NCBI GenBank assembly: GCA_016712865.1
Contig: JADJQH010000002.1
Span: 1,302,001-1,366,000 of the forward strand
DNA length: 64,000 nt
From: Dokdonella sp.
GTDB taxonomy: Bacteria > Pseudomonadota > Gammaproteobacteria > Xanthomonadales > Rhodanobacteraceae
Reading direction: 5' to 3'
In this document: positions 2,790 to 58,520 of the stretch, piece after piece
How positions within the stretch are numbered: the stretch's first letter is position 1
Layout: the number at the start of each line of letters is the position of its first letter
Program-made: the position numbers and the translations under genes
The notes under the pieces: model-generated
The model's database searches: none
Told to the model about the DNA's origin: nothing
What the model saw: the letters and a program-made list of their open reading frames with translations, nothing else

Positions 2790-5261
2790 ATGAGAATTTT
2801 CCTACGTCTGGCCCGCTATGCGCTTTACCTCGGACTGGGTGGCGCGCTGCTGGGTTTTCTTGCCCTTGGCATCGCCTATTGGCTGATTTCGCCTCGCCTG
2901 CCGGCCGTCGAGTCCCTGAAGAACGTGAACCTCCAGGTGCCGTTGAAAGTGCTGTCCGCAGACGGCAAGCTGATGGCGACCTTTGGCGAAACCCGGCGCA
3001 TTCCCATCACCATGAAGGACGTGCCGGATCGCCTGCGTTATGCGGTGCTGTCGGCTGAAGACGCGGATTTCTACAGCCATTCGGGTATCGATTTCGGCGG
3101 AATTGCGCGTGCCGTCTGGCTGGTTACCACCACCGGCAGCAAGCACGTCGCAGGCGGCAGCACGATTACCCAGCAGGTTGCACGCCAGTTTTTCCTGAGT
3201 CCCGAAGTCACCTATACGCGCAAATTGTCGGAAATCTTCCTCGCGTTCCGCATCGAGAATGCGCTCAGCAAGGACGAGATCCTCGAGCTTTATCTCAACA
3301 AGAGTTTCTTCGGCAATCGCGCCTACGGTATTGCTGCAGCGGCCGAGTTTTACTACGGAAAATCGCTCGACCAACTGACACTCGCCGAGTGCGCGATGCT
3401 GGCTTCCTTGCCCAAATTTCCATCCACGGGCAACCCGATCAGCAACCTTCCGCGCGCGCTGTTGCGCCGCGCCTATGTGCTTGGACGCATGCTGGATCTG
3501 GGCCATATCGACAAAGCCAGGTATGACGCGGCAATGGCCGAGGACGACCTCTCCTTTGCCCACGAACCACCGATCGAGATCGAGGCTTCCTACCTCGCCG
3601 AAATGGTCCGACAGGAAGCCATTACGCGCCTGGGCAACGACGCACTCAACAACGGCTACGTCATACGCACCACGATTGAATCCGCCGACCAGGCAGCGGC
3701 GAACCAGTCGCTGCGGGAATCGTTGCTCAACTACGACATGCGCCACGGCTATCGCGGCGCGGAAGCGCACGTGGAGCTCGGCTCCGAACGCGACCCCGAA
3801 CACCTGGCCACGCACATCGAATCCCATGATGTGGTCAGCGGGTTGATGCCCGGCATCGTCAGTGCGAGCAGCGAAACCGAAGCCATCGCGTACTTGAAGG
3901 ACGGCCAAAGCGTCGCGCTTGATCTCACCGCCGTTGAATGGGCCCGCCCCTATATTGACGACAGTCGGCACGGCCCCTCGCCCAAGCGGGTTTCGGACGT
4001 GCTCAAGGTTGGCGACATCATCCGCGTGGTGCGTGACGACAAGGGCACTTGGCGCCTGGCCCAACTTCCCGCGGTGCAAGGTGCGTTTGCCGCCCTGGAT
4101 CCGGAGGATGGTGCCATCCGCTCGCTGATCGGCGGCTTCAACTTCTCACGCAGCAAGTTCAACCGGGCCACCCAATCGAGCCGCTCGGCCGGATCCAGCT
4201 TCAAGCCCTTCCTGTATTCGGCGGCTTTCGAGCATGGATTCACCCCCGCCTCGGTGGTCAACGATGCTCCCCTGGTGTTTCCGGACCCATCGCGGCCCAA
4301 CGGCCTGTGGACGCCTTCGAATGACGACAACAAGTTCGACGGCCCCATGCGCTTGCGCGAGGCCCTGGTGCAGTCGAAAAACCTGATCTCGGTCCGCCTG
4401 CTCGATGCCATTGGCGTCCACTATGCCCACGAGTACGTGACCCGCTTCGGATTCAACGCACAACAAATCCCCGAGAACCTCTCCATGGCACTCGGCACCG
4501 CTGCCGTATCCCCGCTGGAAATGGCACGCGGCTACGCAGTGCTTGCCAATGGCGGGTTTCTCGTCGATCCCTATTTCATCGCCGAGATCAGTGACCGGGA
4601 CGGCAAGCTGATCTACCGCGCCGATCCTGCACGGGTCTGCAGCGAGTGTCCGCAGCGCCAGCTCGAAGGCAGCGGCGGCTCCGTCGGCTCGGATGCGTCC
4701 TCGCCTGCTGGATTCAGCGCGATCAGCAGCGCCCATGCAACCACAGCCGCAGTTTCCACCGACGGCAGCCCCCGCCTTGCTCCGCGCGTCCTCGACGCGA
4801 GGGTTGCCTACCTGGTGACGTCCCTGATGCGCGATGTCATCCGGCGTGGAACAGGATCCGGCGCGATGGTGTTGAAGCGCAACGACCTCGCCGGCAAAAC
4901 CGGAACCACCAACGAATACCGGGATGCCTGGTTCTCCGGTTTCAATGCAAGAATCGCCGCAACGGCCTGGGTTGGATTCGACGATTTCAGTTCGCTCGGC
5001 AGCCGCGAGTTCGGTGCCAAGTCCGCGCTTCCGATCTGGATCGGATTCATGCGCGAAGCATTGGCCGACGTGCCAGAGCAGCCCTTCGACATGCCGGCCG
5101 GCATCACCACGGCGCGGATCGACAGACACAGTGGCTTGCTCGCATCCGCCGGTGACGCCGAGTCGATGATCGAGTATTTCAAGACCGAAGATGTCGACCA
5201 ACTGGCAGCGCGCCCGGATTCGCAACAGGAAGAGCTGCGCGAAGCCTATGACGTGTTCTGA
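2790..5261 (+). CDS. mrcA: Penicillin-binding protein 1A (bifunctional transglycosylase/transpeptidase)
   Basis: Class A PBP (823 aa from the ATG at MRIFLRLARY) that polymerises and cross-links peptidoglycan at the outer face of the inner membrane. In order: a membrane anchor at 8-35; a GT51 domain with SAEDADFYSHSGID (catalytic Glu90) and GGSTITQQVARQFFL; then a transpeptidase domain with S469-S-F-K472, S529-K-N and K703-T-G-T. All active-site motifs are intact. An earlier in-frame ATG at 2691 would add 33 non-hydrophobic residues before the anchor and is less likely. The gene is divergent from pilMNOP, a common arrangement in gammaproteobacteria, and its stop overlaps the next start by one base. 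Confidence 0.95.
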   Translation: MRIFLRLARYALYLGLGGALLGFLALGIAYWLISPRLPAVESLKNVNLQVPLKVLSADGKLMATFGETRRIPITMKDVPDRLRYAVLSAEDADFYSHSGIDFGGIARAVWLVTTTGSKHVAGGSTITQQVARQFFLSPEVTYTRKLSEIFLAFRIENALSKDEILELYLNKSFFGNRAYGIAAAAEFYYGKSLDQLTLAECAMLASLPKFPSTGNPISNLPRALLRRAYVLGRMLDLGHIDKARYDAAMAEDDLSFAHEPPIEIEASYLAEMVRQEAITRLGNDALNNGYVIRTTIESADQAAANQSLRESLLNYDMRHGYRGAEAHVELGSERDPEHLATHIESHDVVSGLMPGIVSASSETEAIAYLKDGQSVALDLTAVEWARPYIDDSRHGPSPKRVSDVLKVGDIIRVVRDDKGTWRLAQLPAVQGAFAALDPEDGAIRSLIGGFNFSRSKFNRATQSSRSAGSSFKPFLYSAAFEHGFTPASVVNDAPLVFPDPSRPNGLWTPSNDDNKFDGPMRLREALVQSKNLISVRLLDAIGVHYAHEYVTRFGFNAQQIPENLSMALGTAAVSPLEMARGYAVLANGGFLVDPYFIAEISDRDGKLIYRADPARVCSECPQRQLEGSGGSVGSDASSPAGFSAISSAHATTAAVSTDGSPRLAPRVLDARVAYLVTSLMRDVIRRGTGSGAMVLKRNDLAGKTGTTNEYRDAWFSGFNARIAATAWVGFDDFSSLGSREFGAKSALPIWIGFMREALADVPEQPFDMPAGITTARIDRHSGLLASAGDAESMIEYFKTEDVDQLAARPDSQQEELREAYDVF

Positions 5262-50998: not shown

Positions 50999-53857
50999 TC
51001 AATCAAACGCCAGATCCAGTTCGCGGGCGACGGCCAGCACCTGCGTGCAGGCGGCATCGAGCGCTGCGTCGCGATGGACCAGGCGCGGTTTCGCATCCAG
51101 TTTGCTGGCGAGCGAGCGCGACAACATCAGCGCATGCGCGGAGGTCAGCGTTTCGGCTTGCACCGGCGTGAGCAGGCCGAGTCGGGCGGCAGCTTGAATC
51201 AAATCCAGCGTGTGCGTGGCGGCAAGCAGTGCGGGCTGCCGCGGCGCGTGCTCCAGCACGATGGCCTGCATCAGGAACTCGATATCCACCAATGCGCCGA
51301 GGCCTTGTTTCAGATCAAGACGAAGAGCATCCGAACGATCACTCTCCTGGCGCCAGCGCGTCCGCATCTCGACGATCTGCCGATGCAGTTGCGCGCCCTG
51401 GCCGCGCGCTTGCAGCGCATTCGCGCGCACGTCTGCAAACAGGCGACCCAAACCCACATCACCGGCCACCGCACGCGCCCGCACGAGAGCCTGATGCTCC
51501 CAGGTCCAGGCGCGCGCCTGCTGGTAGGCGGCATAGGCGTCGAAGCTGCTGACCAGCAGGCCGGAACCGCCATCCGGGCGCAGTCGCACGTCGATGTCAT
51601 ACAGCTTCCCGGAGCGGGTCGGCATGCTGAGCACGTGGACAAAACGCTGCGCCAGTCGCGCGTAGTAGCGACTGCCTTCCAGCGGTTTGGCACCATCGGA
51701 TTCCAGTGCGGCATGCGCGCTGTCGTAAATGAAAACCAGGTCGAGGTCGGAACCGAAGCCCAGCTCCATGCCGCCAAGGCTGCCGTAGCCGATCACCGCC
51801 ATGGCGGTTCCATCACCCGGGCGATCATCCATGCGGCCGTGTGCGGCAATCAGGTCGCGTTCGGCAATGCGCAGTGCCGTTGCCAGCACCGCTTCGGCGA
51901 CATCGGTGAGCGAGCGCGCAGCGGCCACCGCATCGATGCGTCCACCCAGGAAGGCGAGGCCCACATGAAACTGCACCGCCAGTCGTTGCTCCTGGAGAAG
52001 GTCAACCTCGCGCTCCAGGTCCGGCTCGTGCACCGCACCCAGCCGCCGCGCCATTTCCGCTTCAATCTGTTCGCGGCTGGGAGGCAACTCCTGGCCGCGA
52101 TCGATGAGCAGTTCGTCAAGCAACAGGGGATGGGCAATGACCCGCTCCGCGAGCAAGGCGCTGGCGGCAAACACCGAGGCCAGGCGACGCAATGCGGCGG
52201 GTTGTTCATCCAGCAAGGCCAGATAGGCGGACCGTCGCGCCACCGCCTGCACCAGACCGATCAGGCGCACCAGGCAGGCGCTGGGTGCCGAACTTCGTGC
52301 AGCGGCCTTGAGCAAGGCCGGCATGATGCGATCAATGCGTTCGCGCGAGCGAACCGATGCGGCCCGCAGGATCGGACTGCCGAGAAATCCCCGCAAGGCC
52401 TCCAGTACCGGCTGCACCGGTTCAAAGCCGGCGGCGGCAAATGCCTGGTCGTCGATCTGCTCTGCGCTGGCGCGCTGCCACAGGCTGTCCCAGGATGCTG
52501 TTGCCTCGCTGCCGCGCTGGTTTTCACTCGCCGCCATCACCGCCTTGAATTCATCGCTGACCACTGCGCGATGGCGATCCAGTTCGGCCACGAGTTCAGT
52601 CGCTCCGGCAAATCCGAGCGCCAGCGCAATGCGCTCGCGGGCCAGCGCGTCGTCCGGCAACTCATGGGTCTGCGCGTCGGCAAACATCTGCACGCGGTTC
52701 TCGACCCGGCGCAGCAGGCGATAGGCATCGAGCAAGCCCCTGGCGCGTTTTGCGTTGATCAGCCCGAGTTGTTCGCAGGCAGCGAGGGCAACCTGCAAAC
52801 CACGCACGCGCAGGGATGGCTCGCGCCCGCCACGGATCAATTGAATCAACTGCACGATGAACTCGATCTCGCGAATGCCGCCGGGACCGAGCTTGAGATT
52901 TTCGGCGAGGTCCTTGCGCGCGACCTCGGCGTCGATCAAGGCCTTCATCTCGCGCATGCCGGCGAAGGCCGTGTAGTCGAAATAACGGCGGAACACGAAT
53001 GGCCGCAAGGTGGCCAGCAGGCGGTTGCCGGCGGCCTTGTCGCCGGCCACCGGGCGCGCCTTGATCCAGGCATAGCGTTCCCAGTCGCGGCCTTCGCGCT
53101 GGTAGTACTGCTCCATGGCGGTGAACGACAGGGCGACGCGGCCGGCGTTGCCGAATGGCCGCAGGCGCAAATCGACGCGGTACACGTAACCTTCGCGCTC
53201 GCGGTCGGCCAGCAGCGAGATCAGATGCTGGCACAGGCGCGCGTACCAGACTTCGGCATCCAGCGCACGAGCGCCATCACTGCTGCCCGGCTCGTCGTAA
53301 GCCAGGACCAGGTCGATGTCGGATGAGAAATTGAGTTCGCTGCCACCGAGTTTGCCGAGCGCGAGCACGACCAGGCGCTGCACCTCGCCGCGCGCATTGC
53401 GCACGACGCCATGGCGCGCAGCCAACTGGCGCTCGGCATGACGCAGCGCGGTTTCCAGACACACCTCGGCAAGCACGCTGGCCCCGGTGAGAGTGGTTTC
53501 AATGCCGTCCACATGGTTGACGTCACGCCAGATCAGGCGGATAGCCTCGCGGCGGCGGAAGCGGCGCAGTTCGCCGCGAAACTCCTCGTCACTCATCGCC
53601 ATGGCGAACGGTGCCACGCGCGCATCGGCGTGGCGCGGATCGTTCATCAGGCGAACCAGTTCGGGTCCGAGCAGGCCCGGATCCTGAAGAAAACTCTCGA
53701 AGGCAAAATCGCTGGCCAACAGCACCCGTTCCAGATGACTGTCGACGCCGGCATCGTCATAAAACGGCACTCCCGCGTCGCGGCACAGTGCATCCAGCCG
53801 TGACATGCGCGAATCCAGCAATTGGTGAATGGCCTGCGGCCGGGCGCGTAGGGACAT
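50999..53857 (-). CDS. glnE: Glutamine synthetase adenylyltransferase/adenylyl-removing enzyme
   Basis: 952-aa bifunctional regulator that adenylylates glutamine synthetase and removes AMP from it in response to PII and glutamine. Two nucleotidyltransferase domains are visible. The N-terminal adenylyl-removing site is LGKLGGSELNFSSDIDL (about 168-183), and the C-terminal adenylylating site is GYGSLGGMELGFGSDLDL (about 690-707). The second half has the KLYDIDVRLRPDGGSG motif. Both active sites are intact. It converges with the ELM1-like gene. Confidence 0.95.
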   Translation of the reverse strand: MSLRARPQAIHQLLDSRMSRLDALCRDAGVPFYDDAGVDSHLERVLLASDFAFESFLQDPGLLGPELVRLMNDPRHADARVAPFAMAMSDEEFRGELRRFRRREAIRLIWRDVNHVDGIETTLTGASVLAEVCLETALRHAERQLAARHGVVRNARGEVQRLVVLALGKLGGSELNFSSDIDLVLAYDEPGSSDGARALDAEVWYARLCQHLISLLADREREGYVYRVDLRLRPFGNAGRVALSFTAMEQYYQREGRDWERYAWIKARPVAGDKAAGNRLLATLRPFVFRRYFDYTAFAGMREMKALIDAEVARKDLAENLKLGPGGIREIEFIVQLIQLIRGGREPSLRVRGLQVALAACEQLGLINAKRARGLLDAYRLLRRVENRVQMFADAQTHELPDDALARERIALALGFAGATELVAELDRHRAVVSDEFKAVMAASENQRGSEATASWDSLWQRASAEQIDDQAFAAAGFEPVQPVLEALRGFLGSPILRAASVRSRERIDRIMPALLKAAARSSAPSACLVRLIGLVQAVARRSAYLALLDEQPAALRRLASVFAASALLAERVIAHPLLLDELLIDRGQELPPSREQIEAEMARRLGAVHEPDLEREVDLLQEQRLAVQFHVGLAFLGGRIDAVAAARSLTDVAEAVLATALRIAERDLIAAHGRMDDRPGDGTAMAVIGYGSLGGMELGFGSDLDLVFIYDSAHAALESDGAKPLEGSRYYARLAQRFVHVLSMPTRSGKLYDIDVRLRPDGGSGLLVSSFDAYAAYQQARAWTWEHQALVRARAVAGDVGLGRLFADVRANALQARGQGAQLHRQIVEMRTRWRQESDRSDALRLDLKQGLGALVDIEFLMQAIVLEHAPRQPALLAATHTLDLIQAAARLGLLTPVQAETLTSAHALMLSRSLASKLDAKPRLVHRDAALDAACTQVLAVARELDLAFD

Positions 53858-53997
53858 GCCGCGATTCTGGCATCCACCTTGCATTGCCACCAGCCGGCCC
53901 GGGTCGGTGCACAGACACCTGCCCAGTTCACCCTATACTCAGCAGGTTTCAGGATGATGACGCACCCCGCCCTTCCCTCTTGCCGCCGGTCACCACG

Positions 53998-55839
53998 ATG
54001 ACTTCAAACCTCCGCCCCGCGACTGCTGGGCGCAATTGGCACAGTGCCCTCTGGTTGCTGTTGCTGGTAGTGCTGTTTGCGCTCGGCGTGGAACGCCTGG
54101 ATCCCGCATTCGGCGGAGCCGTCGGCTTGGCGGATGCGCGCGCATGGCAGCTCGCGCTGCTGGGTGCCATTCCGTTCCTGCTGGTGGTGTTGCTGGTGTG
54201 CGCGTTGACCCGGCGTGTGCTGCTGGCGAGCTGGATCGGAGGTCTTCTTCTGGCGGCGACCTTTGGTGCAAATGCGGTGAAGGTCGAACAGCTGGAAATG
54301 CCGCTGTTGCCCGGTGACTTTCATTTTCTCCAGGAGATCGGCTCATCCTGGCCACTGTTCTCCCATTACCTCGGCTCCAGCGGAATGGTCCTGCTGGTTG
54401 TCGCAGTGATCCTGCTCTTGACCCTGGCCCTGGTGCGCGAAACCCCGTGGCCGGCCATGCGTGGTTGGCGCCGGCTGGCGCTTGCCACCTTCACCCTCGT
54501 CATGGCCACGGGACTGCTGGTGGGCTGGACGCCGTGGCGCGTGGTCTACAGTGCCGAACGCCTGCAGTTTGCTCCGTGGTCGGTGGTGGACAGCGCGCGC
54601 CAGGCGGGTGTTGTCGGCAATTTGGTGCTGTACAACTGGGAGCTGGCGCGTCGCCAGAATCTGAAGCCCGACCGCTCCGCTGCCGTGCGCCTGCTGGGCG
54701 AACATGCCGAGGAACTGCGCGCGCGCCAGTACCCCAATCATTCCGCTTGGGCGATGCCCAGCGACACGCGCCCGGACATCGTCATTGTGCAGAGTGAATC
54801 CCTGTTCGATCCGGCGCGCCTGCGCAATGCACCCGCACGCACCTACCTGCCGAACTACCATCGCTTGGCCAAGCGCGGCCTGTCCGGTGAAATGTCGGTG
54901 CCTACCTATGCCGGCGGCACCATCCGCACCGAGTTCGAGGTGTTGACCGGGCTTGCCCTCGCCTTTTTCCCGGGCGTGCAGTATCCGTACTACGAAATCG
55001 CCGACCGGCCCATCCCCGGCATCGTGCGCACCCTCGGCAGCCAGGGTTACCGGACAACCGCCATCCATCCCAATACCGGCGTGTTCTGGAATCGTCGCCA
55101 GGCCTTCCAGCAGATAGGCTTTGATGCCTTCATCGACGACCGCGAATTTTCCAAGGACGACATCGTCGGCCTGTTCATCGGCGACGCCGCACTGACCGAC
55201 AAGGTGCTGCAGAACCTCGACGAGCAGGGTCCGCCGCAACTGCTGTTTGCCATCAGCATGGAAAACCATGGCCCGTTTGACTGGCGGCCTGGCCTCGATG
55301 TACAGCGTCTGAAAAACCTGAAGGTGCCACCCAACCTCAGTGAAGGTGGCGACTACTGGCTGCGCAACTACCTGTACCTGCTGGAGGATGCCGATCACGA
55401 ACTCGGTCGCCTCGCGGCGGCGCTGGAAAAGCGCAAGCGCCGCACCTTGCTGCTCTTTTACGGCGATCACTTGCCGGGACTGGGTCCGGTCTATGAGGAC
55501 ATCGGTTTTGCCGACGGTGGCGATGCCAAGTCACAGCCGGTGCCCTGGCTGCTGCTCGACAACGGCCGGGATCTTGTACAAGGCGCACCCATGAACACCA
55601 CCTCGTGGATGTTGCCCGGCCTGCTGCTGGAGGCCGCAGGCATCCAGGGCGATTCGTACTTCGCCACGCTCAGCACCCTGCGCGATGCATTGCCGCCGAA
55701 CGTGATGAGCGCATCGACGTCCCTGCCCGCCGAGCTGCGAGCACTCGGCCAGTTGCGCTACCGCAATGAGCTGGAGCCCATCATGCAGCAGGTTCTCGAT
55801 GGCAGCGGCACAGATCCGGCCTCGACCATCGCGCCATAG
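53998..55839 (+). CDS. LTA-synthase/OpgB-like membrane sulfatase-fold phosphotransferase
   Basis: 613-aa protein with four or five N-terminal membrane helices (to about residue 170). A periplasmic alkaline-phosphatase-superfamily domain follows. DIVIVQSESLFDP binds metal, Thr308 in AGGTIRTEFEVLTG is the nucleophile position, FAISMENHGPFD and FYGDHLPGLG supply later ligands. In Gram-negatives this family transfers phosphoglycerol or phosphoethanolamine to glucans or LPS; the acceptor here is unknown. The gene is divergent from glnE and followed by the hairpin-repeat region. Confidence 0.87.
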   Translation: MTSNLRPATAGRNWHSALWLLLLVVLFALGVERLDPAFGGAVGLADARAWQLALLGAIPFLLVVLLVCALTRRVLLASWIGGLLLAATFGANAVKVEQLEMPLLPGDFHFLQEIGSSWPLFSHYLGSSGMVLLVVAVILLLTLALVRETPWPAMRGWRRLALATFTLVMATGLLVGWTPWRVVYSAERLQFAPWSVVDSARQAGVVGNLVLYNWELARRQNLKPDRSAAVRLLGEHAEELRARQYPNHSAWAMPSDTRPDIVIVQSESLFDPARLRNAPARTYLPNYHRLAKRGLSGEMSVPTYAGGTIRTEFEVLTGLALAFFPGVQYPYYEIADRPIPGIVRTLGSQGYRTTAIHPNTGVFWNRRQAFQQIGFDAFIDDREFSKDDIVGLFIGDAALTDKVLQNLDEQGPPQLLFAISMENHGPFDWRPGLDVQRLKNLKVPPNLSEGGDYWLRNYLYLLEDADHELGRLAAALEKRKRRTLLLFYGDHLPGLGPVYEDIGFADGGDAKSQPVPWLLLDNGRDLVQGAPMNTTSWMLPGLLLEAAGIQGDSYFATLSTLRDALPPNVMSASTSLPAELRALGQLRYRNELEPIMQQVLDGSGTDPASTIAP

Positions 55840-55840
55840 A

Positions 55841-56696
55841 CCGGCAATTGCTCCTGCATTGCCGGCATACCGACCATCCCTGGTCATAGGCCGGCAATTG
55901 CTCCTGCATTGCAGGCATACCGGCGCTCTGCGCAATCCACCTGCGTGGCGTATTTGAGGCACCGCGAATCAAGCAGTATCCGTTCGTGGTGAGCCCCCAA
56001 AATCCGTTCGTGGTGAGCCTGTCGAACCATGAACGGAATCAGGGTGCCAGGCAATCCTGTTTCAACATGCTCCGGACGGACGGGACGTGGTCGTCGTTGC
56101 CTTGATCATCCCTGGCCATCGCCTGCAATTGCGCCTTCATTGCCGGCATACCGGCGCTCTGCGCAATCCAGCTGCGTGGCGTATTTGAGGCACCGCGAAT
56201 CAAGCAGTATCCGTTCGTGGTGAGCCCCCAAAATCCGTTCGTGGTGAGCCTGTCGAACCATGAACGGAATCAGGGTGCCAGGCAATCCTGTTTCAACATG
56301 TTCCGGACGGACGGGACGTGCTCGTCGTTGCCTTGACCATGCATGGTCATCGCCTGCAATTGCTCCTGCATTGCAGGCATACCGTCCATCCATGGCATCG
56401 CCGACAACTGCTCCTGCGTTGTCGGCATACCGTCCATCCATGGCATCGCCGGCAATTGCTCCTGCATTGCCGGCATACCGACCATCCATGGATGGAATCC
56501 GCATGGCATGGGTGCCATGCGTTCCATGGCCATCGCCGGCAATTGCTCCTGCATTGCCGGCATACCGACCATCCATGGATGGAATCCGCATGGCATGGGT
56601 GCCATGCGTTCCATGGCCATCGCCGGCAATTGCTCCTGCATTGCCGGCATACCGACCATCCATGGCATCGCCGACAACTGCTCCTGCGTTGTCGGC
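55841..56696. repeat. Nine-copy covarying hairpin repeat array
   Basis: Nine copies of a hairpin with 8-9 bp arms and a 9-base loop. They start at 55841, 55890, 56121, 56352, 56400, 56448, 56535, 56622 and 56670. The loop TGCTCCTGC is identical in eight copies. Stems come in subfamilies: GCCGGCAAT/ATTGCCGGC, GCCGACAAC/GTTGTCGGC and GCCTGCAAT/ATTGCAGGC. Substitutions occur on both arms so pairing is kept; two copies have a single mismatch. Copies 4-9 are spaced 48 or 87 bp. None of the reading frames through it looks like a conserved protein. Confidence 0.85.
55890..56351. repeat. 231-bp direct tandem duplication
   Basis: Two copies, 55890-56120 and 56121-56351, with about seven differences in the last 200 bases. 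Each starts with one hairpin of the array. Each also carries a GTTCGTGGTGAGCC direct repeat and an imperfect palindrome (CCGTTCGTGGT near its complement, at 56004-56036 and 56235-56267) resembling a widespread REP-type motif. Confidence 0.85.
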
Positions 56697-56717
56697 ATAC
56701 CGTCCATCCATGGACAT

Positions 56718-56753
56718 AAAAAAACCCGCCGGGCATTTCTGCCACGGCGGGTT
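56718..56753 (-). terminator. Rho-independent terminator of the flavin amine oxidase gene
   Basis: On the minus strand AACCCGCCG pairs with CGGCGGGTT (56723-56731 with 56745-56753) around a loop containing a further GGCA/TGCC pairing, followed by seven T. It lies 170 bp past the oxidase stop and separates that gene from the hairpin array. Confidence 0.85.
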
Positions 56754-56924
56754 CTCCCTCCCCACGAGTCGATCTCGCAATTACACAATCCTAATGATTT
56801 TCTGACATATGCCACGCCGCAGCGCAGCATGAAAAGTCGATGCGGCTTACGACGAAAAAGCTCGTAGTCAGGACGACTGCGCGAAGCGAGACCGCCCGGC
56901 GTTTGCACACTGGCAAGCAGAGAC

Positions 56925-58520
56925 TCACGCCATCGCGCCGGTGGCGCGCTTGCGTGAACCGGCAATGGCCTCGGCAACCCACTCGCCACTTTCCACTCCG
57001 CCTTCCATGAAGCCCTGGTTGTCCAGCGCGCAATGCTCGCCGGCAAAATGCAGGTTGCCCACGGCTTCGCCGGGCGCACCACGCACGCTCGTCCATTGCC
57101 CGGGGCGATAGCAGGCATAGCTGCCCAGAGTCCACGGATGCGTTGGCCAATGCATGCGCGCCTGCTTCATGCCATCGCGTGCCGCCGACAGCCCGGGGAA
57201 GATGGCATCGAGTTCACGCGCCGCCTTGTCGGCCTGCATCATCGCGCTGCCCTCGCCGATCTCGACGCCATGCTTGCCGCCGACGAAATTGGTGAGGATG
57301 CCGGCCGTGCCCGCCTGCATGCGGCTGGTTTCCCAGGTGGTCTGCAGCGGCAGGTCACTGAAGCTGCTGGCGGAGCTGGCATGCCGCGTGCGCCAGATGC
57401 GTTCGTTGAAGCCGATCATCAGTTTGGCATTGGTGCCGTAACCGAGCTCATGGATGGCGCGACGCTTCACCTCGGGAAGCTCAACATCCATGCGCACGCG
57501 GCGCAGGGTGGTGAATGGCAGGGCCAGCACCACGCGTGAGGCATTCACCTCGAAGGCCGAAGAACCACGCTTGAAACCCAGGCGATAGCCGCCGCCTGCG
57601 GACTGGCTGATCGCTTCCAGCACCGCATCGGTTTCAATGGCATTGCCGAGCTTGGCTGCCAGCGCCTTGACGATCAGGTCGTTGCCGCCGCGCACGTGGA
57701 AGCGTTCGTCGCTTTCGCCAAAAATGCGGAAGGCCTCGGTGCCCGGATCAATGAAGGTAAGCAGGTTGAGCGCGGATTGCTCGCCACACTCCAGCCCCAT
57801 CTCGGTGGTGTAGGCCACCTCGATCAGCGTGCGCAGCCAACCCGAAGCCCCGTTGCGATCCAGCCACTGGCTGATCGACTCGCGATCCAGCGTCTCGCAG
57901 CCACCCGGTTGTGCGTAGGTGATCTGACCCTCGGGCAAGGTATCCGCATCGCGCGCAATGGCCTGGGCCAGCGGGGCAAAGTCGCGCAGGATTTCGGCTT
58001 CGTCGTGGCGTCGGCCTTCGGCAAACCAGACATCGCCAAAGGCGTGCGTGGGGTCTTCACTCAAGTCATCCAGCGCAATACCCAGTTCCGCCGCCAACGC
58101 GCGGATGCGCACATGGCCGGTGTCGATCAATTCACCGCCAAGCTCACACACCTGGCCATCGGCAAAGTGGTTGGTCAGGCTCAGCATGCGCCCGCCGATG
58201 CGGTTCTGCGCCTCGTACAGGCGCACCGGGATGCCCGCCTGACGCAAGCGCCAGGCGCAGGTCAGCCCGGCGATGCCGGCGCCCACGACGACGACATCCC
58301 CACCGCCCTTGTCGGATTGCATGGGCACGCGCGCGCACGCGCCCAGCAGCAGCGCCGAAGCCGCCGTTGCCGATTGCTGGAGAAACCGTCGGCGTGACGA
58401 ACCCCGACGCAGTTCCTTTTCCCGCATCACCGCTTCCGCAAGCGGCTCGCCAGTGGATTGCGCCACCCGCGCAATGGCTGCCGAGCGACGCAACAGGTTC
58501 ACCAGATGAGTACGCGCCAT
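56925..58520 (-). CDS. Tat-exported flavin-containing amine oxidase
   Basis: 531-aa FAD-dependent oxidoreductase of the monoamine oxidase family. A twin-arginine signal (SSRRRFLQQSATAASALLLGAC, RRR at 43-45) is preceded by an unusually long N-region, and Cys62 makes a possible lipobox. The FAD site is VVVVGAGIAGLTCAWRL with YEAQNRIGGR. The C-terminal NLHFAGEHCALDNQGFMEGG is typical of the family. Substrate is unknown. An internal ATG at 58427 (MREKELRRG) would give a standard Tat N-region and is a credible alternative start. Confidence 0.88.
   Translation of the reverse strand: MARTHLVNLLRRSAAIARVAQSTGEPLAEAVMREKELRRGSSRRRFLQQSATAASALLLGACARVPMQSDKGGGDVVVVGAGIAGLTCAWRLRQAGIPVRLYEAQNRIGGRMLSLTNHFADGQVCELGGELIDTGHVRIRALAAELGIALDDLSEDPTHAFGDVWFAEGRRHDEAEILRDFAPLAQAIARDADTLPEGQITYAQPGGCETLDRESISQWLDRNGASGWLRTLIEVAYTTEMGLECGEQSALNLLTFIDPGTEAFRIFGESDERFHVRGGNDLIVKALAAKLGNAIETDAVLEAISQSAGGGYRLGFKRGSSAFEVNASRVVLALPFTTLRRVRMDVELPEVKRRAIHELGYGTNAKLMIGFNERIWRTRHASSASSFSDLPLQTTWETSRMQAGTAGILTNFVGGKHGVEIGEGSAMMQADKAARELDAIFPGLSAARDGMKQARMHWPTHPWTLGSYACYRPGQWTSVRGAPGEAVGNLHFAGEHCALDNQGFMEGGVESGEWVAEAIAGSRKRATGAMA

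Follow-up and report, generated by a model that had tools for sequence, protein, structure and literature searches.

A nine-copy hairpin array in a Dokdonella genome is probably a tandemly amplified cluster of a short mobile DNA element

Introduction

Between a sulfatase-domain gene and a convergent flavin amine oxidase gene, the genome of Dokdonella sp. carries an array in which one hairpin loop recurs nine times while the stems around it vary in matched pairs. Does such an array encode a structured RNA, or is it a palindromic repeat that matters at the level of DNA? The window (the whole stretch of DNA analyzed, 64,000 nucleotides; positions 1,302,001 to 1,366,000 of contig JADJQH010000002.1) had an initial annotation that read the array as a regulatory RNA and named a DNA-level repeat as an alternative. 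Here, we weigh these readings against the architecture of the array, its relatives in other genomes, and the sites at which they lie. We conclude, with a probability of about 0.8, that a short (47–50 nt), non-autonomous mobile DNA element has been amplified in tandem to form the array.

Results

Architecture of the array

The nine hairpins are 27 nt long each (Table 1) and carry the loop TGCTCCTGC in eight cases and TGCGCCTTC in the ninth. All nine stem positions are paired in six of them; the remaining three have one mismatch each, an A.C at the base of the hairpin at 55840, a G.A at 55890, and a T.C at 56121. These counts bear out the initial annotation, which had described nine hairpins between 55840 and 56696 with eight identical loops and stems varying in matched pairs. 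The stems at 55890 and 56121 appear to combine a GCCGGC unit with a GCCTGC unit as reciprocal hybrids, and both fall in a 231-bp tandem duplication with 95% identity between its copies.

Table 1. Features of the array and its surroundings (window coordinates).
Feature	Position	Strand	Remarks
Upstream gene, Sulfatase domain (PF00884), presumably LTA-synthase-like	53611..55839	+	true start probably later
Whole array, 880-bp insertion between GCGCCA (55831–55836) and TAAAAAAACCC (56717 on)	55837..56716		empty or single-unit sites in relatives; junction ambiguous by 3–4 nt
Hairpin 1, unit 1, ACCGGCAAT / ATTGCCGGC	55840..55866	+	orthologous unit of genome G099 is ACCAGCAAT / ATTGCTGGC, a paired change
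Hairpin 2, unit 1, GACC-ATCCCT-GGTC	55872..55885	+	
Hairpin 1, unit 2, hybrid stem, one mismatch	55890..55916	+	
Two 231-bp direct repeats (55890–56120, 56121–56351)	55890..56351		both contain CCGTTCGTGGTGAGC...GAACGG, an unrelated palindromic repeat
Hairpin 1, unit 3, hybrid stem, loop altered to TGCGCCTTC	56121..56147	+	
Hairpin 1, unit 4, GCCTGCAAT stem	56352..56378	+	
Hairpin 1, unit 5, GCCGACAAC stem	56400..56426	+	
Hairpin 1, unit 6, GCCGGCAAT stem	56448..56474	+	
Hairpin 1, unit 7	56535..56561	+	
Hairpin 1, unit 8	56622..56648	+	
Hairpin 1, unit 9, GCCGACAAC stem	56670..56696	+	
Hairpin 2, unit 9, GTCC-ATCCAT-GGAC	56702..56715	+	
Conserved block ending in the terminator at 56717..56753; candidate small RNA or leader	56715..56833	-	outside the array
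Intrinsic terminator, bulged AACCCGCC...GGCGGGTT hairpin, then T tract	56717..56753	-	array sits at the edge of its T tract
Downstream convergent gene, flavin amine oxidase (PF01593)	56925..58520	-	

The repeat unit is larger than first described. Hairpin 1, with its loop TGCTCCTGC, is followed at a near-constant distance by an unlike hairpin 2 with the loop [A/G]TCCNT, the two together making a unit of about 47–50 nt with TCC at the apex of both loops. Within a first collection of 97 units, the hairpins lie 17 nt apart in 78, 16 in 16, and 18 in 1, and two longer spacings are mis-assigned second hairpins. Hairpin 2, the flanking terminator, and the dispersed copies had all been missed at first. 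Three of four window units form the hairpins when folded as single-stranded DNA (z scores of −3.9 to −6.8), and one of these three does so on both strands; the fourth, the degenerate unit at 56121, does not (z −2.3).

Window units are spaced by 48, 87, or 231, all multiples of 3, and in one case by 50, while other arrays of the same genome step by 49, 50, 85, or 87. Because of the step of 50 in the window and those of 49, 50, and 85 in its sister arrays, a coding repeat is ruled out.

Several loci elsewhere show variations on this plan. By eye, an inverted hairpin 2 precedes the unit at three of them (L071, L136, and L153) to give a three-hairpin variant, which at L071 lies directly after a T tract. 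At four others (L025, L012, L018, and L407), mobile palindromes form a mosaic in which a different palindromic repeat, CCCTCTCCC...GGGAGAGGG, lies within loop 1 or close to it. Array units are bordered by runs of tens of G (and C) at two loci of the window's own genome (L009, about 1060–1095; L024, about 910–1028), which probably reflect sequencing or assembly trouble at hairpins.

Covariation of the stems

To quantify pairing, we used a gap-free alignment of 145 distinct 47-mers chosen by loop 1, the form of loop 2, and the spacing. They derive from 147 distinct units after removal of one with an N and one overlapping row; at least three rows, from viral contigs (L307, L311, and L322), look like chance matches, and several rows with a 10-nt loop are scored as unpaired by the fixed columns. 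Over all 14 pairs, 82.9% of the cells pair, compared to 58.6% after shuffling, and the covariation score is 0.552, compared to 0.161 (sd 0.009) in shuffled and at most 0.147 in slid versions. The 15-mer used to fetch many of the loci fixes three inner pairs of hairpin 1, and the two-loop phylum pattern used for some others fixes the closing pair of hairpin 2. Because these patterns fix inner pairs of some loci, the test was rerun on the 10 pairs that no search pattern fixes. Of the cells at these pairs, 78.6% are paired, compared to 49.3% after shuffling, and the score is 0.653, compared to 0.189 in shuffled controls, which remove no relatedness, and at most 0.158 in slid controls, which keep it.

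Units gathered in other ways agree. Among 31 fetched without any hairpin-1 stem letters, the five inner pairs of hairpin 1 are Watson–Crick in 27–28. At orthologous sites, unit 1 of the window has G-C where the single unit of a same-genus genome (G099) has A-T, and the stems of an array beside pnp read GCCCGC in the window's genome (L011) and GCCTGC in the same-genus genome G121 (L296; site matched by eye). The earlier proposal that the stem itself is what is kept is supported. Strong covariation with conserved loops is no proof of RNA.

Distribution in the genome and across Gammaproteobacteria

Copies of the element also lie outside the array. The genome has 55 matches to the loop motif YTGCTCCTGCR, many of these being unrelated sites with no stem, and 8 to the reversed pattern; the 15-mer core AATTGCTCCTGCATT has 31 copies, compared to 0 for its reversed control. 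Scattered copies of this kind, which the initial annotation held to be at odds with its own RNA reading, are thus present. The core occurs in 8 of 197 genomes of the family and 3 of 10 of the genus, again with a reversed control of 0.

Broader searches extend the range. A two-loop pattern matches 24 of 398 phylum genomes, with at most 26 copies per genome and a reversed control of 0, although some of the 24, single matches with odd spacing (e.g., G570, G496, G380, and G261), look like chance. When 11 hairpin-1 positions are left free, one subtype of the unit is matched in 21 of the 369 class genomes searched, which represent 17 of 272 genera. Most of the matches listed retain TGCTCCTGC as loop 1, with a closing pair that alternates between T-A and C-G. 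Whole units are present in 61 of the 118 GTDB stretches listed for the 15-mer, including stretches from Methylobacter, Methylomonas, Shewanella, Colwellia, Vreelandella, Halopseudomonas, Rheinheimera, and Kangiella. Judged by these comparisons, the twin-hairpin repeat family is real and widespread in Gammaproteobacteria.

Mobile replicons yield matches as well. Six Pseudoalteromonas plasmid records match; in the four viewed, no annotated feature lies under the match in an incomplete gene table. The pattern occurs in 25 IMG/VR contigs, and the full unit is found in six of them (L308, L313, L314, L315, L323, and L325), which may be true phages or host fragments; one 48-base query had no match in phages. 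On the Salmonella plasmid NZ_CP133280.1 (L334, about 4001–4036), a 36-nt stretch 94% like the unit lies within the BREX gene pglX, and Moellerella NZ_CP093250.1 is among the listed matches as well.

An Rfam search returned nothing at gathering level, the weak matches reaching 12–18 bits where gathering scores are 43–380. The exact repeat strings are absent from the literature searched, in which the 24 GTAG families of PMC3733652 (Figure 1) were not compared by consensus. Within that literature, the twin-hairpin mobile repeat family appears to be undescribed.

Empty, single-copy, and nine-copy sites

Two same-genus relatives without the core (G131, L408; G059, L400) preserve the empty site of the array, GCGCCA^TAAAAAA, with the sulfatase gene continuing directly into GCGCCATAAAAAA(A)CCCGCC. 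The same site holds a single unit in G099 (L409/L291) and nine units in 880 bp here, inserted at CA^TAA. It is both the stop codon and the terminator edge of the upstream sulfatase gene, whose stop is TAA in the two empty-site relatives and a TAG supplied by the insertion in the window.

In another clade, a 47-nt copy sits at C^T on the tip of the palindrome AGCCCGGCTC^TGAAGAGCCGGGCT (L368). Two more loci (L370 and L371) have the same right arm and a partly changed left arm, and the empty form of the palindrome is found at two places in the same genome, G740. A 47-nt insertion likewise interrupts CCCTCACCCTAGCCC^TCTCCC (L344), a common CCCTCACCC...CTCTCCC repeat whose degenerate empty pattern, with one mismatch allowed, has 47 matches in G693. 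At 42 junctions of the C^T type, the preceding base is C in 37 and the following base is T in 35. No target sequence is lost or duplicated at the insertion sites, within an ambiguity of one T in the C^T cases and 3–4 nt at the window site.

The flanks of single copies pair with one another beyond expectation. Arms of at least 9 nt were found in 16 of 110 copies, a few of them at homologous sites, compared to 1.3 expected from permuted flanks, and arms of at least 12 nt in 5 of 110, compared to 0.04; units with another unit or a look-alike in their flanks (88 of 198) were left out. At the pnp site, the core is present in 0 of the 29 relatives fetched, and those displayed have what appears by eye to be a terminator-like hairpin. 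Across the genomes compared, the unit is thus present or absent as a precise insertion, and its single copies lie within larger palindromes above chance. Together with the dispersed copies, these insertions favor the alternative that the initial annotation had offered, a DNA-level palindromic repeat.

Terminators and neighboring genes

Of 29 main-subtype clusters in four genomes of the window's family, 26 lie directly beside an intrinsic terminator. The 29 include orthologous sites (about 18–20 distinct terminators by eye) and cover four of the eight core-bearing family genomes, G121 through 20 of its 27 copies as listed. One locus (L020) is in neither group, one whose stem was read as "?" (L285) is placed in the main subtype, and one (L286) has no unit; two of the three misses (L294 and L287) are truncated by a contig end. 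All 26 clusters end directly at the A tract of a terminator read towards the array; therefore, the array begins where the neighbor's transcript should stop. Clusters of the GGAAAT-stem subtype lie at a terminator in 0 of 6 cases. At four terminator sites, profiles identified the neighboring genes: pnp, ahcY, a phasin, and a TonB receptor. Because few units in other clades have a terminator beside them, the terminator is one kind of hairpin target and no general rule.

Relative to genes, units lie in both orientations, as assigned by a crude longest-ORF caller that leaves many rows unknown or within an ORF; the right-hand neighbor points to the unit in 52 of 82 called rows and the left-hand neighbor in 39 of 76. 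Outside the array, the conserved block at 56715–56833 (about 115 bp), closed by a strong terminator, is about 81–100% identical in seven other same-genus genomes. Folded as RNA on the minus strand, it has a z score of −3.9, and it has no Rfam match at gathering level. Its distance to the amine oxidase gene varies, and in several same-genus genomes the two are kilobases apart or on different contigs.

Alternative explanations

The initial annotation likened the array to CsrA/RsmA-binding sponge RNAs and considered a stand-alone or 3'-UTR RNA; on this reading, minus-strand hairpin loops with NGGA would titrate CsrA. The CsrA-binding consensus is CANGGANG, and minus-strand loop 2 comes close to it, being A-N-GGA closed by C-G in 141 of 145 units, where the loop form, and at some loci the closing pair as well, was imposed by the searches. 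Minus-strand loop 1 has AGGA, which gives two sites per unit about 22 nt apart, and if such an RNA is made, its ANGGA loop 2 may bind CsrA. A.C mismatches outnumber G.T over all pairs of the 145 units (125 compared to 53), leaning to the minus strand, but the excess is driven by the two outermost pairs, which hold 82 of the 125 and look like a fixed unpaired boundary. The inner pairs have 20 G.T and 27 A.C, favoring neither strand; the corresponding counts are 3 and 6 in stem 1 and 10 and 8 in stem 2 of the first unit set, and 4 and 12 in long-stem units. There is no clear strand preference in these wobbles, although there may be a weak lean to the minus strand. GGA does occur in hairpin loops, as in a sponge, but promoter and terminator are not in the right order: on the minus strand, the neighbor's terminator comes before the array. 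A scan of 55600–57000 yielded no sigma-70-like promoter; it is weak, because only 0.5 is expected in shuffles and the known terminator at the array edge was also missed. Since the terminator is on the wrong side, the inner wobbles are neutral, and units occur in both gene orientations, a sponge or 3'-UTR RNA is unsupported; the scattered copies and their precise insertion into other palindromes also speak against it, and no publication joining CsrA, a REP element, and a sponge was found. We regard it as highly improbable. Selection might instead keep the array as a structural site for handling chromosomes or supercoils downstream of strong genes, for which gyrase-binding BIMEs are a model. Main-subtype arrays do follow the terminators of the four genes named above, but the patchy occurrence of the core within family and genus, and relatives without an array at the same terminators, make this improbable.

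A different objection is that the paired stem changes reflect template switching from arm to arm, or gene conversion, with no selection for the hairpin. The likeness of stems within the pnp array, set against a different stem in the orthologous G121 array, is what such a process would leave, as are the hybrid hairpins at 55890 and 56121. Yet those hybrids remain uncorrected, and matches across the class mostly keep the same loop 1 although the search did not fix it, so the unit is constrained in part. We consider this explanation possible, if somewhat unlikely, and it can operate together with a mobile element. The units could also be REPs proper, moved in trans by a RAYT (TnpA-REP) that is encoded elsewhere or has since been lost. 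They are hairpins in intergenic clusters, they insert at C^T, the dinucleotide at which TnpA-REP enzymes are reported to cleave (C|T; PMC8266576), GTAG is present near hairpin 1 on the minus strand of the CTCGGCAA subtype, and this genome has four Y1_Tnp genes. However, GTAG is not conserved, the minus strand beside hairpin 1 reading GTAT in 57, GAAT in 22, and GTAG in 3 of 145 units. Of the 38 PF01797 matches in 15 element-bearing genomes, 30 loci were examined, and none of these, nor any of the four Y1_Tnp loci in this genome, has a unit within about 1.5 kb. A PF01797 match is absent altogether from 5 of 20 genomes that carry the element. Copies run head to tail rather than as inverted dimers: 201 unit loci, many only about 1.2 kb long, contain a single inverted pair 150–5000 bp apart, with no ORF of 80 aa inside it and no composite element with units at both ends. 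What the units share with REPs is a short, repeated intergenic stem-loop. Because the GT(A/G)G head, the unit-flanked RAYT gene, and the inverted dimers (BIME, REPIN) are missing, the statement that the element is a REP fails, and we find membership in that family doubtful; that it works like a REP is a plausible analogy. The element inserts without target duplication as IS200/IS605-type elements do, and no cognate Y1 transposase with the same ends was found at the loci examined.

Separately, three of the four Y1_Tnp genes (L030, L031, and L032) adjoin other tandem repeats, which encode repeated peptides and are unrelated to the twin-hairpin unit.

Discussion

We infer that the twin-hairpin element moves, and the following scheme would account for the array. 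The site downstream of the sulfatase gene, at its stop codon and terminator edge, first received one copy, from which the nine units later arose. Movement would take place on the folded single strand of the element, with both cutting and joining done by an enzyme that recognizes hairpin shape together with loop bases, as in IS200/IS605 or TnpA-REP systems. Terminators and palindromes would be favored targets because they expose hairpins in single-stranded DNA. Growth of arrays by unequal recombination or repeated insertion would then explain the two hybrid hairpins. The substrates of TnpA-REP enzymes are REPs folded as single strands, in which these enzymes recognize loops or stem irregularities and cleave at C|T, or in one case also at C|A (PMC8266576). 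The C^T junction, the lack of target duplication, the fixed loops with free stems, and the hairpin targets all fit an enzyme of this style.

More tentatively, the family may represent a novel single-strand DNA transposition system, spread across Gammaproteobacteria by a non-RAYT enzyme that homes on hairpin tips and terminator T-tract edges and reads only loop bases and shape. We put this forward as a possibility worth considering rather than as the expected outcome. If it holds, the element would be among the smallest mobile elements known, 47–50 nt consisting essentially of two hairpin ends, and free adaptation of its stem sequence would follow from such recognition by loop bases and shape alone. 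Within one genus, a single site is found empty, with one copy, and with nine, so that one can read directly how a bacterial palindromic array arises and grows. The family is also a natural test case for how loops, more than stems, can mark a nucleic-acid hairpin for recognition across a bacterial class, and for whether mobile DNA uses terminators as landing pads.

Comparison with known systems

CsrB/RsmZ-type sRNAs consist of repeated hairpins with GGA loops, a design that the units share if read on the minus strand. Unlike these sRNAs, the units lie in many dispersed places and both orientations, without a recognized transcription unit. Group IIC introns insert downstream of intrinsic terminator hairpins, as main-subtype clusters do, but they are ribozyme retroelements many times longer, and nothing of that kind was seen here. 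Non-autonomous derivatives of IS200/IS605 elements have terminal hairpins, a short target motif, and no target duplication. This resemblance (PMC8266576, in the part that treats them) is tempered by a unit that is far shorter, by a target consisting only of C^T or A^T plus a hairpin, and by the absence of an autonomous partner among the loci found.

The closest likeness is to REP, BIME, and REPIN sequences, which, in the portions of PMC2817692, PMC3733652, and PMC8266576 that describe them, are short, dispersed intergenic palindromes with paired stem changes and a tendency to cluster. Some REPs also lie within other palindromes (PMC3733652, in part), and their enzymes cut at C|T (PMC8266576, in part). 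In contrast to REPs, the element has no GTAG tag and no RAYT found adjoining it, and its copies are arranged head to tail. Each 47–50-nt unit joins two unlike hairpins with conserved loops, the same loops recur across many gammaproteobacterial families, and in one family the insertions lie at terminator edges.
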